Positions 22,760-60,631 of a stretch of DNA of 64,000 nucleotides are shown here, one piece after another. The translations under genes were made by a program, and so were the position numbers. This DNA comes from Chloroflexi bacterium HGW-Chloroflexi-2. Its GTDB lineage: Bacteria > Chloroflexota > Anaerolineae > Anaerolineales > Anaerolineaceae. The notes under the pieces were generated by a model. That model had not been told where the DNA came from and did no database searches. It worked only from the letters and a program-made list of their open reading frames with translations. Positions within the stretch are counted from its first letter, which is position 1. The number at the start of each line of letters is the position of its first letter. The stretch covers positions 1 to 64,000 of the forward strand of contig PHBY01000013.1 of NCBI GenBank assembly GCA_002840735.1, given 5' to 3'.

Positions 22760-22917
22760 TCCCCTACGGCCGGGCAACAATCCCGTTTGGGCACGAGTCC
22801 AACCTGTAAAACCTGTCATCAAACACGGCAAATCAACAATCCTCACCTGCAAATTTATTCAGGAAATCAAAAACCAGGGAATCCTGTAAATCCCGGTTCG
22901 GACTTTTTTTAACCCAA

Positions 22918-22975
22918 GGTGCAACGCACCTGAGGGAAGAATGGTGGGGATCCCATCCCTAAGTGCATCGCACCG
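22918..22975 (-). repeat. Hairpin repeat unit, single copy
   Basis: On the minus strand the unit reads GGTGCGATGCACTTAGGGATG at one end and GTGCGTTGCACC at the other, the same ends as in the arrays near 33 kb, 48 kb, 58 kb and 60 kb. It is shorter than the others (about 58 bases). Confidence 0.7.
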
Positions 22976-32802: not shown

Positions 32803-33490
32803 GGTGCGATGCACTTAGCGAGAAGAAATCACCACCGAATGGACACTTTTCATCATCAATCCAGAATCCAAAAGTGCGTTGCACCTTTCTGGTGGGGAGT
32901 TAAGAACAGGTGCATCGCACTTCTGGTCTTGTGGTAAATAGGAACCGCTTCCAGGATGTTTGTGTTTTGGTGCATCTCTAAGTGTACCCAAAAGGGCAGA
33001 CGACAACGCACCAGGTTGGGGTTAAGGTGCGATGCACTTAGGGACGGGGAAGATACCTGGAATAAACTTATGACGAGTGATCCTCCAGAAACCAAAAGTG
33101 CGTTGCACATCTGGTGGGGAGTTAAGAACAGGTGCATCGCACTTCTGGTCTTGTGGTAAATAGGAACCTCTTCCAGGATGTTTGTGTTTTGGTGCATCCC
33201 TAAGTGTACCCAAAAGGGCAGACGACAACGCACCAGGTTGGGGTTAAGGTGCGATGCACTTAGGGAGAAGAAGTCTACATAGCATGGATTCTTTTCATCA
33301 TCAATCCAGAATCCAAAAGTGCGTTGCACATCTGAGAAGAAATCACCACCGAATGGACACTTTTCATCATGAATCCAGAATCCAAAAGTGCGTTGCACCT
33401 GGTGTAGATGTAAATGCACTTAGCGAGAAGAAGTCTACATAGCATGGATACTTTTCATCATGAATCCAGAATCCAAAAGTGCGTTGCACC
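32803..33490. repeat. Hairpin repeat array 1, alternating units
   Basis: Units of two kinds alternate. Type A reads GGTGCGATGCACTTAG to CCAAAAGTGCGTTGCACC in about 83 bases (32803, 33026, 33248). Type B is in opposite orientation and reads GGTGCATCGCACTTCTGG to AACGCACC in about 104 bases (32909, 33131). The last two units before 33490 have damaged left ends. Each type B copy here holds the longer arm with ACCCAAAAGGG. The array ends against the IS110 element. Confidence 0.85.
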
Positions 33491-33519
33491 TTGTATACAG
33501 TATAAGTAATTCCGGGTAG

Positions 33520-33780
33520 ATCCGGATATAGATGGAGCGGGAGGTTATTGCACCATACCGGATTGAAAAATCACGGCTGGGTCGAGACTACCTCCCGCAA
33601 CTTTCTCCCATAAGGGCTTACCTCGCACGATTCCCCTAAACCGATGTGGACTACTCCAGCAACCGGGGTAGGGCGCTCCACGCGGTCGTGAGGGCTAATT
33701 GCCACAAGGATGCCATCAGAGAAACATTGTGGGATACCCGCTCCAATTGGATTGTAACCAAATATTGAAAGGAGTTCAAC
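33520..33780 (+). ncRNA. Candidate bridge (seek) RNA region of the IS110 element
   Basis: IS110 elements encode, in the non-coding end, a structured RNA with loops that pair with donor and target DNA. The left end here can fold: GCGGGAGGT (33537-33545) pairs with ACCTCCCGC (33590-33598) with a 44-base loop between. The loop begins with TTGCACC (33549-33555), the same seven bases as the end of the repeat unit just left of the element (33484-33490). The rest (33605-33735) is GC-rich with further possible stems. Confidence 0.5.
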
Positions 33781-35103
33781 TTGGAAACCTACCAAAGGAT
33801 AAAAGTCGGTATCGATGTTGGCAGGAGCAAAGTAGACTTCGTAATTCTTCATCCAGATGGACATCGCCTTGAGAAAAACAGTTCATTCAATAATTCTCCA
33901 GAGGGAATCGAACAGGCAAAACAATTACTCATAAGGATTATGGAGAAACATGATTTCTCAGGAGTTGACATTGCCGCCGAAGCTACAAGCTTCTACTGGC
34001 TACCCTTATTTATCCAACTACAACAAGATACTGAATTAGCTCATTATGCACCTCGTCTGACATTACTCAATGCTGCGTGGGTAAAATGGTATAAAAAAGG
34101 TTTTCCACCAGATCACAAATCGGATCAGGTGGACCCTTTTTATATAGCAGATCGATTGCGTACTATGGTCAACCATACATGGTGGTATTATGATGCTCAT
34201 TGGCTAAACTTACGTTTTTATACCCGGTTGCGTTTTCACCTCAGCCAAAGTCTTATGCGAGAAAAAAACCACTACCACCTCTTTTTGTTTCTCGGTCATA
34301 GCGCTTATAGCCAAAAGAGAACAAAACCGTTTACCGACACGTTTAGCCGTATCAATGAAGTACTACTGCATTCCCCAGGTCTTTTGGACCATTTACAAGA
34401 TCTTGAAGTCGATGACCTGGCTGTCCAACTATATGAATTAGCTGGACACAGGCTAAATGATCCTATGCAATCGGCTAAGAAATTTCATCACGCCCTTCAA
34501 GAAAGCTTTACTCCACCAAAAGAGATTGAACCAGCGATTCAAACGGCTCTGGATTCTTTGATCACAGTTATTCGGCATTTGGAAGGTCAAATTAAAATTG
34601 TTGAGAACCATATCGCTGAAGTTGTGGAAAATGATTATCCTGAGGTAAGCTGGCTTCGCTCTATTCCCGGCATTGGTGCCATATTTGCTAGCAGTATTGC
34701 AGCTGAGATTGGCGATTTGCACCGTTTCTCTGATCGTTTACGCTGGGACAATAAAAGGAATTGTTATCGTCGACGAAGTGCTCGTGAAGTCGAAGATGCA
34801 GTTGCTAAATTTGCTGGTTTGTGGTGGCCAAAAAATGATTCTGGTGATTTTTCTGCGGAAGAAACACCTTTGTCAAAACGAGGAAATGCATACCTGAGAT
34901 ATTTCATTCTTCAAGCTGCGGATCGCATGCGCCTGTATATCCCCAGCTATTCTGCTTACTATTCTAAAAAATATATTCAAGCCACGAAACACAATCATAA
35001 ACGTGCGTTGGTGTTAACTGGCCGAAAGGCTGTAGGTCTCATTGTGGGGTTGCTCCATCATCATGAGTTCTACCGGCCTGAGGAGGTTTCTCCTCGAACT
35101 TAG
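33781..35103 (+). CDS. IS110-family transposase (DEDD recombinase)
   Basis: A 440-residue protein. The N-terminal part has VGIDVGRSKVDFV (first Asp), IAAEATSFYWLPL (Glu) and SDQVDPFYIADRL (two Asp), the DEDD RuvC-like active site. The C-terminal part has LRSIPGIGAIFASSIAAEIGD and LSKRGNAYLRYFI, the Tnp20 domain with its serine. TTG start at 33781 with AAAGGAG upstream. The frame is intact, so the element may be active. Orthodox IS110 lengths are 300-420 residues, so it is a little long. Confidence 0.9.
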   Translation: METYQRIKVGIDVGRSKVDFVILHPDGHRLEKNSSFNNSPEGIEQAKQLLIRIMEKHDFSGVDIAAEATSFYWLPLFIQLQQDTELAHYAPRLTLLNAAWVKWYKKGFPPDHKSDQVDPFYIADRLRTMVNHTWWYYDAHWLNLRFYTRLRFHLSQSLMREKNHYHLFLFLGHSAYSQKRTKPFTDTFSRINEVLLHSPGLLDHLQDLEVDDLAVQLYELAGHRLNDPMQSAKKFHHALQESFTPPKEIEPAIQTALDSLITVIRHLEGQIKIVENHIAEVVENDYPEVSWLRSIPGIGAIFASSIAAEIGDLHRFSDRLRWDNKRNCYRRRSAREVEDAVAKFAGLWWPKNDSGDFSAEETPLSKRGNAYLRYFILQAADRMRLYIPSYSAYYSKKYIQATKHNHKRALVLTGRKAVGLIVGLLHHHEFYRPEEVSPRT

Positions 35104-35265: not shown

Positions 35266-35571
35266 GGTGCATCGCACTTCTGGTCTTGTGGTAAATCGGA
35301 TCCTCTTCCAGGATGTTTGTGTTTTGGTGCATCCTTAAGTGTACCCAAAAGGGCAGACGACAACGCACCAGGTTGGGGTTAAGGTGCGATGCACTTAGAG
35401 GTGAGGAGATACCTGGAATAAACTTATGACGAGTGATCCTCCAGAAATCAAAAGTGCGTTGCACATCTGGTGGGGAGTTAAGAACAGGTGCATCGCACTT
35501 CTGGTCTTGTGGTAAATAGGAACCTCTTCCAGGATGTTTGTGCTTTGGTGCATCCCTAAGTGCAACGCACC
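35266..35571. repeat. Hairpin repeat array 2, right of the IS element
   Basis: Three units: type B 35266-35369 with the expanded arm, type A 35383-35464, type B 35487-35571 (85 bases, simple arm). The flanking CTGGTGGGGAGTTAAGAAC also precedes type B units in array 1, so arrays 1 and 2 were one array before insertion. Confidence 0.85.
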
Positions 35572-48539: not shown

Positions 48540-48960
48540 GGTGCGTTGACGTCTGCCCTTTGGGTACACTTAGGAATTTACAACTACCATCCATTTTGGT
48601 AGAAGAGATTGTTTAACACGAATCCAGAAGTGCGATGCACCTGAAGCTGTTGGTGCGTTGCACTTAGGGATTTATAACTACCATCTATCTTGGTAGAAGA
48701 GATTTTTTAACACGAATCCAAAAGTGCGATGCACCTGAAGCTGTTGGTGCGTTGCACTTAGGGATTTATAACTACCATCTATCTTGGTAGAAGAGATTGT
48801 TTAACACGAATCCAAAAGTGCGATGCACCTGAACTAAAGCCAACAACTATGATCTAGAGTGCAATGCACTTTTGGTATCTTGATTCTCATTCTTAAAACC
48901 CTATTCAATGTAGACTTCTTATCCCTAAGTGTACCCAAAGGGCATCTGCGACAACGCACC
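48540..48960. repeat. Hairpin repeat array 3
   Basis: Three type B units in direct orientation with GGTGCGTTGCACTTAGG at the left and CCA(A/G)AAGTGCGATGCACC at the right, starting at 48540, 48652 and 48747, the last two spaced 95 bases. The first has an insert inside its left arm (GTGCGTTG to CACTTAGG). A fourth, diverged unit runs about 48860-48960 in opposite orientation. A partial GTGCGCTGCAC lies at 48521. Confidence 0.8.
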
Positions 48961-53378: not shown

Positions 53379-53414
53379 TTTTTTTGGTTTCAACGCTGAG
53401 AGGTTAATTCCCAG

Positions 53415-53519
53415 GTACAATGCACTTTTGGTTTCCTGATTCACAGTCGCAATTTCCCGTTCGATGTAGACTCATTCTCTCCAAGTGCACCCGAAAGGGC
53501 GTCTTCGACAATGCACCAA
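53415..53519 (-). repeat. Diverged hairpin repeat unit
   Basis: One unit bounded by GTACAATGCACTTTTGG and CGACAATGCACC, with an expanded arm holding CACCCGAAAGGGCG. Both triplets read ATT on the minus strand, so this copy does not follow the GAT/GTT rule seen elsewhere. Confidence 0.65.
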
Positions 53520-57747: not shown

Positions 57748-58190
57748 GGTGCGATGCACTTAGAGAGAAGAAGCCTACTTCGAATGGATCCTAACCATCA
57801 TGAATATAATACACAAAAGTGCGTTGCACCTTGTATACAACGATTTGAAACCAGGTGCATCGCACTTCTGGTCTTGTGTTAAATAGACACTTCATCCAGA
57901 TTGTTTGTATGTTGGTTCATCTCTAAGTGCAACGCACCAGTCCAGTCTCAAGGTGCGATGCACTTAGGGAGGAGAAGTATCCATCGAATGGACAAATTTC
58001 ATTATGAATCTGTAAACCAAAAGTGCGTTGCACCTTGCCTTAGAGACAGAGACTTGTGATCGGGTGCATCGCACTTCTGGTCTTAGGTTAACCTTGAACC
58101 CCTTCCAGAATGTTTGTTTGTTGGTTCATCCCTAAGTGCAACGCACCGAAAGATGTCTATTTGTTGGTTCATCTCTAAGTGCAACGCACC
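57748..58190. repeat. Hairpin repeat array 4
   Basis: Alternating units: type A at 57748-57830 and near 57955-58033, type B at about 57854-57939 and 58061-58147, followed by a half unit to 58190. Type A ends CAAAAGTGCGTTGCACC, type B starts GGTGCATCGCACTTCTGG. TTGTATACAA follows the first A unit, the same as left of the IS110 element. Confidence 0.85.
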
Positions 58191-59896: not shown

Positions 59897-59920
59897 CTAT
59901 AGCTGTATTGTATACAAGGT

Positions 59921-60557
59921 GCAACGCACTTTTGGATTCTGGATTGATGATGATAAGTGTCCATTCAATATAGACTTCTTCTCTCTAAGTGCATCGCACC
60001 TTAAGACCGGATTGGTGCGTTGCACTTAGTGGTGAACCAACATTCAACTTTTTTGGAAGAGGTGCCTATTTAACACCAGACCAGAAGTGCGATGCACTCT
60101 GATCTCAAGTCTCTCAGGCAAGGTGCAACGCACTTTTGGATTTTAGATTGATGATGATAAACGTCCATTCGATGGAGACTTCTTCTCTCTAAGTGCATCG
60201 CACCTTAAGACTGGATTGGTGCGTTGCCTTAGTGGTGAACCAACATACAAATAATCTGGAAGAGGTGCCTATTTAACACCAGACCAGAAGTGCGATGCAC
60301 CTGATCTCAAGTCTCTCAGGCAAGGTGCAACGCACTTTTGGATTTTAGATTGATGATGACAAACGTCCATTCAATATAGACTTCTTCTCTCTAAGTGCAT
60401 CGCACCTTAAGACCGGATTGGTGCGTTGCACTTAGGGGGGAACCAACATTCACAAGGTGCAACGCACTTTTGGTAGATTGTTAATGGGGAATTTGCTCCA
60501 GAATTAGGCGTTGTGGTTGTTCACCAAGTGCAACCCTTCGGGTCACAAGCAATGCAC
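59921..60557. repeat. Hairpin repeat array 5
   Basis: About six units alternating in orientation: type A (reverse) at 59921, 60122 and 60323, type B at 60014, 60216 (with a base lost in the arm) and a truncated one at 60418, each about 80-90 bases. The spacing between successive type A copies is 201 bases, so the A-B pair is itself repeated. The last unit carries an expanded arm with ACCCTTCGGGT. Bases 60575-60630 after it contain a run of short ATCAGC repeats. Confidence 0.85.
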
Positions 60558-60631
60558 CGACAATAAGGAAATTACCTATCAGCAATCAGCTATGAGCCAT
60601 CAGCTATCAGCAATCAGCTAATAGCTATCTC

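Follow-up and report, generated by a model that had tools for sequence, protein, structure and literature searches.

REPINs are doublets of REP sequences that form hairpins, with 71 bp between the GI 16-mers in the parts of the original description considered here (Bertels and Rainey 2011, PMC3116915). In the TIRtrons or TIRYTs a RAYT-like gene is instead flanked by repeats of a non-GTAG kind, and the sections used here of the paper describing them report that some of the TIRs are double-palindromic and that some form moderately abundant repeat families (Di Nocera et al. 2013, PMC3733652). Most TIRYTs belong to TnpA_REP subclass 2.1 (RAYT group 1), whose genes, according to the sections consulted of the classification of these proteins, have no REP-like sequences adjoining them (Quentin et al. 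2018, PMC6006769). Among the literature matches listed, taken by their titles and the beginnings of their abstracts, we found no account of the repeat family described here, whose 83-base intergenic members look like small non-autonomous mobile elements. In our reading, to which we give a probability of roughly 85%, they are REPIN-like single-stranded DNA hairpin elements that are mobilised by a RAYT of their genus, carry no GTAG and have a loop of about 55 bases, their mobility being what we infer from the comparisons below.

The window, by which we mean the whole stretch of 64,000 nucleotides analysed, comes from the 4.1 Mb genome of Chloroflexi bacterium HGW-Chloroflexi-2 (G000). The pattern GTGCGWTGCAC, by which the arm words of the family, GTGCGATGCAC and GTGCGTTGCAC, were counted, occurs 42 times in the window against 0.05 expected and at most one in 100 shuffles, and 122 times in the genome, where the reversed pattern used as control occurs once; the hairpin repeat family proposed by the sequence-only reading is thus real. 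The words pair into units mostly of 83-85 bp (88 of 106 in a first set that included genome G002 and was drawn with arm criteria slightly different from those of the 137-unit set), and each unit consists of two inverted 14-base arms, GGTGCnnnGCACTT and AAGTGCnnnGCACC, with 70-72 bases from word to word and a variable interior of about 55 bases. With at most two arm mismatches the window holds 17 full units, namely nine with the triplet GAT in the left arm and GTT in the right (type A), seven with GTT on the left and GAT on the right (type B), and a single GTT/GTT unit at 33318 that overlaps its neighbour. The unit at 22.9 kb, which the earlier reading counted as intact, is an internal-deletion derivative. 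The units of the window are given below, where the strand is that of TTAG and the source is the unit scan unless stated otherwise.

22917..22974, minus strand: type A unit with internal deletion, about 58 bp, not intact
32803..32885, plus strand: type A unit (GAT/GTT), from the sequence and the unit scan, folded
32909..33012, minus strand: branched unit with a 19-nt insert in its GTT left arm; right arm GAT (script search)
33026..33109, plus strand: type A unit
33131..33234, minus strand: branched unit, GTT with insert, GAT (script search)
33248..33330, plus strand: type A unit
33318..33399, plus strand: chimeric GTT/GTT unit whose left arm is the preceding unit's right arm (unit sets, lineage clustering)
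33403..33490, plus strand: decayed left arm and intact GTT right arm (left boundary approximate, by eye)
35266..35369, minus strand: branched unit, GTT with insert, GAT (script search)
35383..35465, plus strand: type A unit
35487..35571, minus strand: type B unit (GTT/GAT), folded
48540..48641, plus strand: branched unit, GTT with insert, GAT (script search)
48652..48735, plus strand: type B unit, folded
48746..48829, plus strand: type B unit
48858..48960, minus strand: branched unit, GTT with insert, ATT (script search)
53414..53517, minus strand: branched unit, ATT with insert, ATT (script search)
57748..57830, plus strand: type A unit
57854..57938, minus strand: type B unit
57952..58034, plus strand: type A unit
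58063..58147, minus strand: type B unit
59918..60000, minus strand: type A unit
60014..60098, plus strand: type B unit
60122..60204, minus strand: type A unit
60218..60302, plus strand: type B unit with arm mismatches (end taken from the arm at 60288-60301/60302)
60324..60406, minus strand: type A unit
60456..60558, minus strand: interrupted left arm (ATT with insert), GTT right arm (by eye; missed by the branched-unit script)

In several arrays A units take turns with B units facing the other way, and the linkers between them measure 13 and about 21-30 bases, neighbours being tabulated only if less than 70 bp apart. Six units of the window are branched, that is, an insert of 18-21 nt stands at one fixed place inside the left arm and forms a small hairpin with the core CCCTTT(N)GGG. 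Ten such units were counted in G000 and one clear case in G006, by eye they belong to several interior lineages, and the form suggests an exchange of arms between units. Between two of the arrays lies an IS110 transposase gene (33781-35103, upstream region 33491-33780), whose protein is its own only match in the genome. Sequence like the upstream region is found at or near the right end (TTGTATAC) of units on contig C96 of G006 (78% over 118 nt) and, by eye, in G001 (C32:27300-27600). IS110 elements may use unit ends as targets; as a common right flank of units, the upstream region was matched by BLAST at only one place besides itself.

Repeated, extragenic and palindromic, and built as an inverted doublet with a spacer of fixed length that folds into a hairpin, the family shares the general properties of REPs and REPINs. 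As in the REPINs of PMC3116915, so far as the parts considered describe them, two inverted words stand at a fixed spacing (70-72 bases here, 71 bp there) around an interior that varies while keeping its length, and the units are intergenic, clustered and linked to a RAYT. They differ from those REPINs in that they have neither a GTAG-type tag nor coupling within the interior, in that the RAYT belongs to a divergent clade of which a close member is accompanied by a 3-base spacer, and in the inserts carried by some left arms. No tetranucleotide, GTAG or other, is conserved to the left of the arm in 126 units, which counts against a GTAG-type element and also against the RAYT reading, and because the tag is missing the units were not filed as GTAG REPs or REPINs. 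Among the matches listed, units with exact arms come from five of the genus's eight genomes, and the 139 further genomes of the family that were searched gave none.

The two strands of a unit are not equivalent. Folded as DNA, the TTAG strand gave an unbroken 14-bp stem and the complement a stem with a 3-base internal loop in all four units tried (three from the window and one from G007), which bears out the earlier claim that the full stem exists on one strand only. Indeed, G.T, pyrimidine-pyrimidine and purine-purine irregularities lie on the TTAG strand in one fixed sense in nearly all units. Among 76 units of the sampled stretches left after thinning at 88% similarity (the 11 units of G002, of 88-91 bp, being excluded from this and from the 126- and 123-row statistics), stem position 6 is G.T in 43 or A-T in 31 and position 8 is T.G in 38 or Watson-Crick in 36, so that each pairs in 74 of 76, and positions 15 and 16 are purine-purine in about 73 units each. 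DNA parameters favour the TTAG strand in 56 of the 76 units; the gap between the mean energies, -12.4 versus -11.1 kcal/mol, is however small and counts against the RAYT reading. With RNA parameters the same strand is favoured in only 42 of 76.

These observations also bear on the alternative that the units are structured regulatory RNAs, or mRNA or terminator hairpins at gene ends, and that the link to a RAYT is secondary. The stem is strong, the arrays at 32.8-33.5, 35.3-35.6, 48.5-49.0, 57.7-58.2 and 59.9-60.6 kb lie between ORFs matched by Pfam (small mechanical ORFs overlap the arrays), and at C16:71766 the convergent genes that enclose a unit in G000 and G006 have between them, in G001 and G007, no unit but a different short terminator-like hairpin (L233, L234), which the unit may have replaced. 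On the other hand, opposite-facing units alternate within an array, so that one transcript carries the TTAG strand of only some of them, and this, together with the RNA energies, makes RNA less likely than single-stranded DNA. Furthermore, the window matched no Rfam family at gathering thresholds, and the flanking genes are tandem, divergent or convergent at the few places examined. We therefore regard a primary function as RNA as improbable; the units may additionally act as terminators or mRNA ends. The sequence-only reading had proposed a selected RNA or single-stranded DNA structure, of which the second half, with a strand preference, stands and the first is less likely; single-stranded DNA is the more likely form of the units.

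The same reading held that, two diverged units apart, left and right triplets are opposite and explained this by compensatory change at a central A-U/U-A pair, GAT/GTT and GTT/GAT being related by double changes. As a rule the opposition holds among 62 units from sampled stretches of G000, of which 30 are GAT/GTT, 16 GTT/GAT, none GAT/GAT, one GTT/GTT and 15 other (three GTG/CTT, three ATT/ATT and nine further ones), and thus 46 opposite, with the qualification that the stretches were picked around GTGCGWTGCAC words and under-sample ATT/ATT. The units at 48.86 and 53.4 kb, which had been named as exceptions, do break the rule; both belong to the branched class and have ATT right arms. In favour of selected pairing, the 14 stem positions are paired in 1002 of 1064 cases, above all of 300 partner shuffles (mean 986.6, sd 3.2, maximum 995); at interior positions 15-24 left-right coupling is absent (266 of 760 paired against a shuffled mean of 285, 76 units), which counts against the RAYT reading. 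Compensation at the central pair itself is not supported. On the TTAG strand position 7 is T.T in 32 of the 76 non-redundant units, A-T in 21, T-A in 12, C.T in seven and something else in four, and the pair is broken in 41 of this genus-wide sample. ATT/ATT is likewise the commonest combination, among the matches listed, in G001 (12 of 20), G006 (9 of 29) and G007 (7 of 15), and in G002 GAT/GTT and GAC/GTT account for 4 of 11 each, the stretches from these other species being drawn from the matches listed.

The history of the interiors likewise speaks against double changes. When the interiors of 123 distinct units were clustered at 76% identity (a threshold chosen because 66% merged 122 of the 123), 50 lineages resulted, none of which contains both GAT/GTT and GTT/GAT, while ATT/ATT is found in 24, two of which also hold GAT/GTT. 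GTT/GTT, a possible intermediate, was met twice, namely at C54:29786 of G001 in a lineage with GTT/GAT, and in the chimera at 33318 in a lineage with GAT/GTT. Since T.T is frequent across the genus and no lineage holds both types, types A and B are better read as two independent one-step repairs of a tolerated T.T ancestor, and T.T pairs leave the duplex undistorted in the REP-related oligonucleotides treated in the part of PMC7709200 used here. The covariation reading of the central pair is accordingly mostly refuted, and we hold compensatory double changes there to be quite unlikely.

Compensatory change that is real is found in the outer arms of genome G005, which corresponds to HGW-Chloroflexi-10. 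Units with GGAGA arms number 19 in G005 and none in the other seven genomes of the genus; their outer stem has changed in both arms, from T-A to A-T and from C-G to A-T, with the GAT/GTT core unchanged, and of 15 distinct units in the fetched loci 14 are GAT/GTT and one is GCT/GTT. These units do not share the purine mismatches at positions 15-16. Because the recoded arms keep the long stem, what is conserved is not the palindrome within an arm, and we reject the notion that each arm acts as an independent palindromic mini hairpin, since the G005 arm GGAGAGATGCACTT is non-palindromic.

The reading as RAYT-mobilised REPIN-like elements rests foremost on what stands between the units in sister species. 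A RAYT gene flanked by such units is present in three of the eight genomes of the genus, all three in the same genus of Chloroflexota as G000: G007 (Anaerolineaceae MAG E6_concoct.bin.151), where it lies at C7:131901-132467 between two GAT/GTT units, G001 (HGW-Chloroflexi-3), where C51:88827-89411 and C19:96182-96766, the latter with one stop, lie mainly between ATT/ATT units, and G005, where C101:164876-165460 lies between units with the arms GGAGAGATGCACTT...AAGTGCGTTTCTCC, so that the recoded arms accompany a RAYT of their own. To judge by the arm words, the nearest full unit on the 5' side points the same way as the RAYT at all four loci, and its counterpart on the 3' side is in direct orientation in G005 and G007 and in inverted orientation at both G001 loci. 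At the G005 locus (L128:1900-2030) extra single arms GGAGAAACG... stand between full units, much like products of decay or recombination.

The protein has the HUH motif, the single Tyr in Y---NP and the fold of TnpA_REP. In 27 aligned relatives, hand-picked from 80, H60xH62 and Y120 are invariant and Pfam Y1_Tnp is matched throughout; the profile matches TnpA_REP 4er8 with an E-value of 5.1e-10, and the best PDB match of an AlphaFold model (mean pLDDT 88) is likewise 4er8, the TnpA_REP-REP hairpin complex (E 4.9e-9). NCBIfam NF047646 (REP transposase) gives 73-79 bits for three proteins of the genus, just below its cut-off of 80. Compared by description with the sections considered of PMC6006769, the genus RAYT resembles TnpA_REP subclass 2.1 as a Y1 HUH protein with the Y---NP motif and differs from it in that Pfam reports no C-terminal HTH domain. 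An HUH gene of RAYT type between repeats that bear no relation to GTAG REPs is also the mark of TIRtrons and TIRYTs, and those with double-palindromic TIRs are the nearest printed description that we found in the sections used of PMC3733652; the arrangement here differs in that the units around the RAYT are direct in G005 and G007 and inverted in G001, and those sections describe neither a series of hairpins across Chloroflexota nor a change of loop length.

In G000 itself units are present and a cognate RAYT was not found in the assembly; the same is true of G006, and both cases count against the RAYT reading. G002 has units and only more distant RAYTs (at most 42%), none with such arms alongside, so that, of the eight genomes, three combine units with the lack of this RAYT and two lack both; this too counts against the RAYT reading. 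The two Y1-type genes of G000 are an IS200-like gene at C34 and a RAYT at C23 (L055:1689-2237, minus strand; 190 bits with NF047646). The latter was rejected as the cognate enzyme, since it is flanked by repeats of another kind, GTAG-GGTGCATC...GATGCACC. It shares 29% identity with the genus RAYT over part of the protein and forms a GTAG REPtron with short GTAG-tagged hairpins, to which no link of the 83-bp units was seen. The earlier remark that no RAYT is nearby agrees with what was seen of the window, and the one RAYT of the assembly, at C23, is of another type, but sister species carry a RAYT between their units. Several contigs of G000 end at units, and a RAYT contig of about 0.8 kb may, as a guess, have been lost from the assembly.

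Movement of the units would then proceed as follows. The TTAG strand, when single-stranded, for example as replication template, would fold into the 14-bp stem, and the Y1 HUH RAYT would read this stem together with its irregularities, that is, the G.T wobbles of positions 6 and 8, at position 7 a Watson-Crick or pyrimidine pair, and the purine mismatches at 15-16, which could tell the TTAG strand from its complement. The enzyme would presumably bind in this strand-specific manner, cut beside the 3' foot at a conserved CT, where the arm ends ...CACC and a T follows, and move or copy the unit into another intergenic site, while arrays would come from tandem amplification of head-on dimers. The base 3' of the right arm is T in all 64 units of G001, G006 and G007, in 52 of 62 in G000 and in all 15 of G005, which places a CT at the 3' foot, and, according to the part consulted of PMC8266576, CT is where the TnpA_REP of E. 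coli cuts, on the 5' or the 3' side of the REP.

Orthologous sites differ between the species, as at C16:71766, and these differences are of presence and absence and not clean empty sites. The array at 59.9-60.4 kb has no counterpart array in G001, G006 or G007; by arm search with at most two mismatches G001 and G006 have one ATT/ATT unit there and G007 decayed remains. Around a unit at C24 orthology of the flanks was found on a single side. None of the compared sites showed a clean target junction or an excision, which counts against the RAYT reading. An origin as ordinary MITEs, moved by a double-strand cut-and-paste transposase that has the 14-base arms as its terminal inverted repeats, would suit the inverted ends, the intergenic position, the variable interior and the amplification of arrays in one species, but is very improbable in view of the Y1/HUH gene with such units on both sides, the strand asymmetry of the mismatches and the one aligned site, C16, where target duplication is not evident, though the junction is not clean. 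Integron attC sites were rejected, since the relatives have a RAYT and not an integrase between the units, and by eye no cassette ORFs lie between units.

Outside the genus, many RAYTs related to the one that we propose as mobilising the units have hairpins of their own alongside. A scan of named genomes with the RAYT alignment gave 426 relatives, of which the best 80 were kept; these are mostly from Chloroflexota, with some from Bacteroidota, Ignavibacteriota, Cyanobacteriota and others. Hairpins with 13-base arms, at least 11 Watson-Crick pairs and a loop of 3-70 were sought within 350 bp, with arms that agree at 10 or more places between the two sides of the RAYT. A hairpin common to both flanks was found at 58 of 74 loci (six of the 80 being too short) and in none of 248 control windows, which lie 1.8-2.6 kb away in the same loci and are not intergenic-matched; an earlier and looser test gave 71 of 80, a figure not used here. 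Outside the genus 54 of 70 loci were positive. The 16 of 74 loci at which the test was negative count against the RAYT reading. In 27 loci both loops are of at most 5 bases, and in 25 of the 58 loci one of the arms includes a perfect palindrome of 9 bases or more, against 5.7% of shuffled arms.

A closely related locus bears on the length of the loop. At L153 AAGGTGCAACGCACTT-TGG-AAGTGCGTTGCACC stands on both sides of the RAYT, that is, the same 14-base arms with a 3-base loop, and in a tree of 79 rows (76 of the 80 loci and three others, rooted for drawing only) this RAYT groups with the four sequences of the genus with support 100/97, the four separating at 99/72. Of the loci nearby, L149 and L155 have a 3-base loop in each flank, and in L154 one flank has a 3-base loop and the other a somewhat longer one; expansion of the loop in the genus is therefore the simpler direction. 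By parsimony on the RAYT tree, the genus would most simply have acquired its long loop from one of 3 bases, in its ancestor or close to it. Over the whole tree loop length, in three classes, takes 13 changes. The distant RAYT L220 (JAUWOY010000002.1) has long loops in both flanks, 67 and 68 with 13-base arms, perhaps by an independent expansion. We put forward tentatively, and at somewhat below even odds, that a RAYT lineage without GTAG and with its own, often double-palindromic, hairpins is widespread in Chloroflexota, and that in one genus a single REP whose loop had 3 bases turned into a REPIN as this loop grew to a nearly constant length of about 55 bases.

On the origin of REP and REPIN sequences and their recognition by RAYTs, the part of PMC8266576 considered here tests three proteobacterial REP/RAYT systems. 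The loci described above offer naturally matched pairs of GTAG-less RAYTs and hairpins, among which some stems have been recoded in a compensatory way and loop length ranges from 3 to about 55 bases, and such pairs let it be asked directly what a RAYT reads and which unit is mobile. They also correct a tempting claim of covariation, since opposite triplets can arise by two different one-step repairs of a T.T pair. If the loop-expansion reading is true, REPINs can arise by the opening of one hairpin and not by the joining of two REPs, and loop length would be an evolvable trait matched to the RAYT; the branched form, with a second hairpin in the arm, would be a further step.
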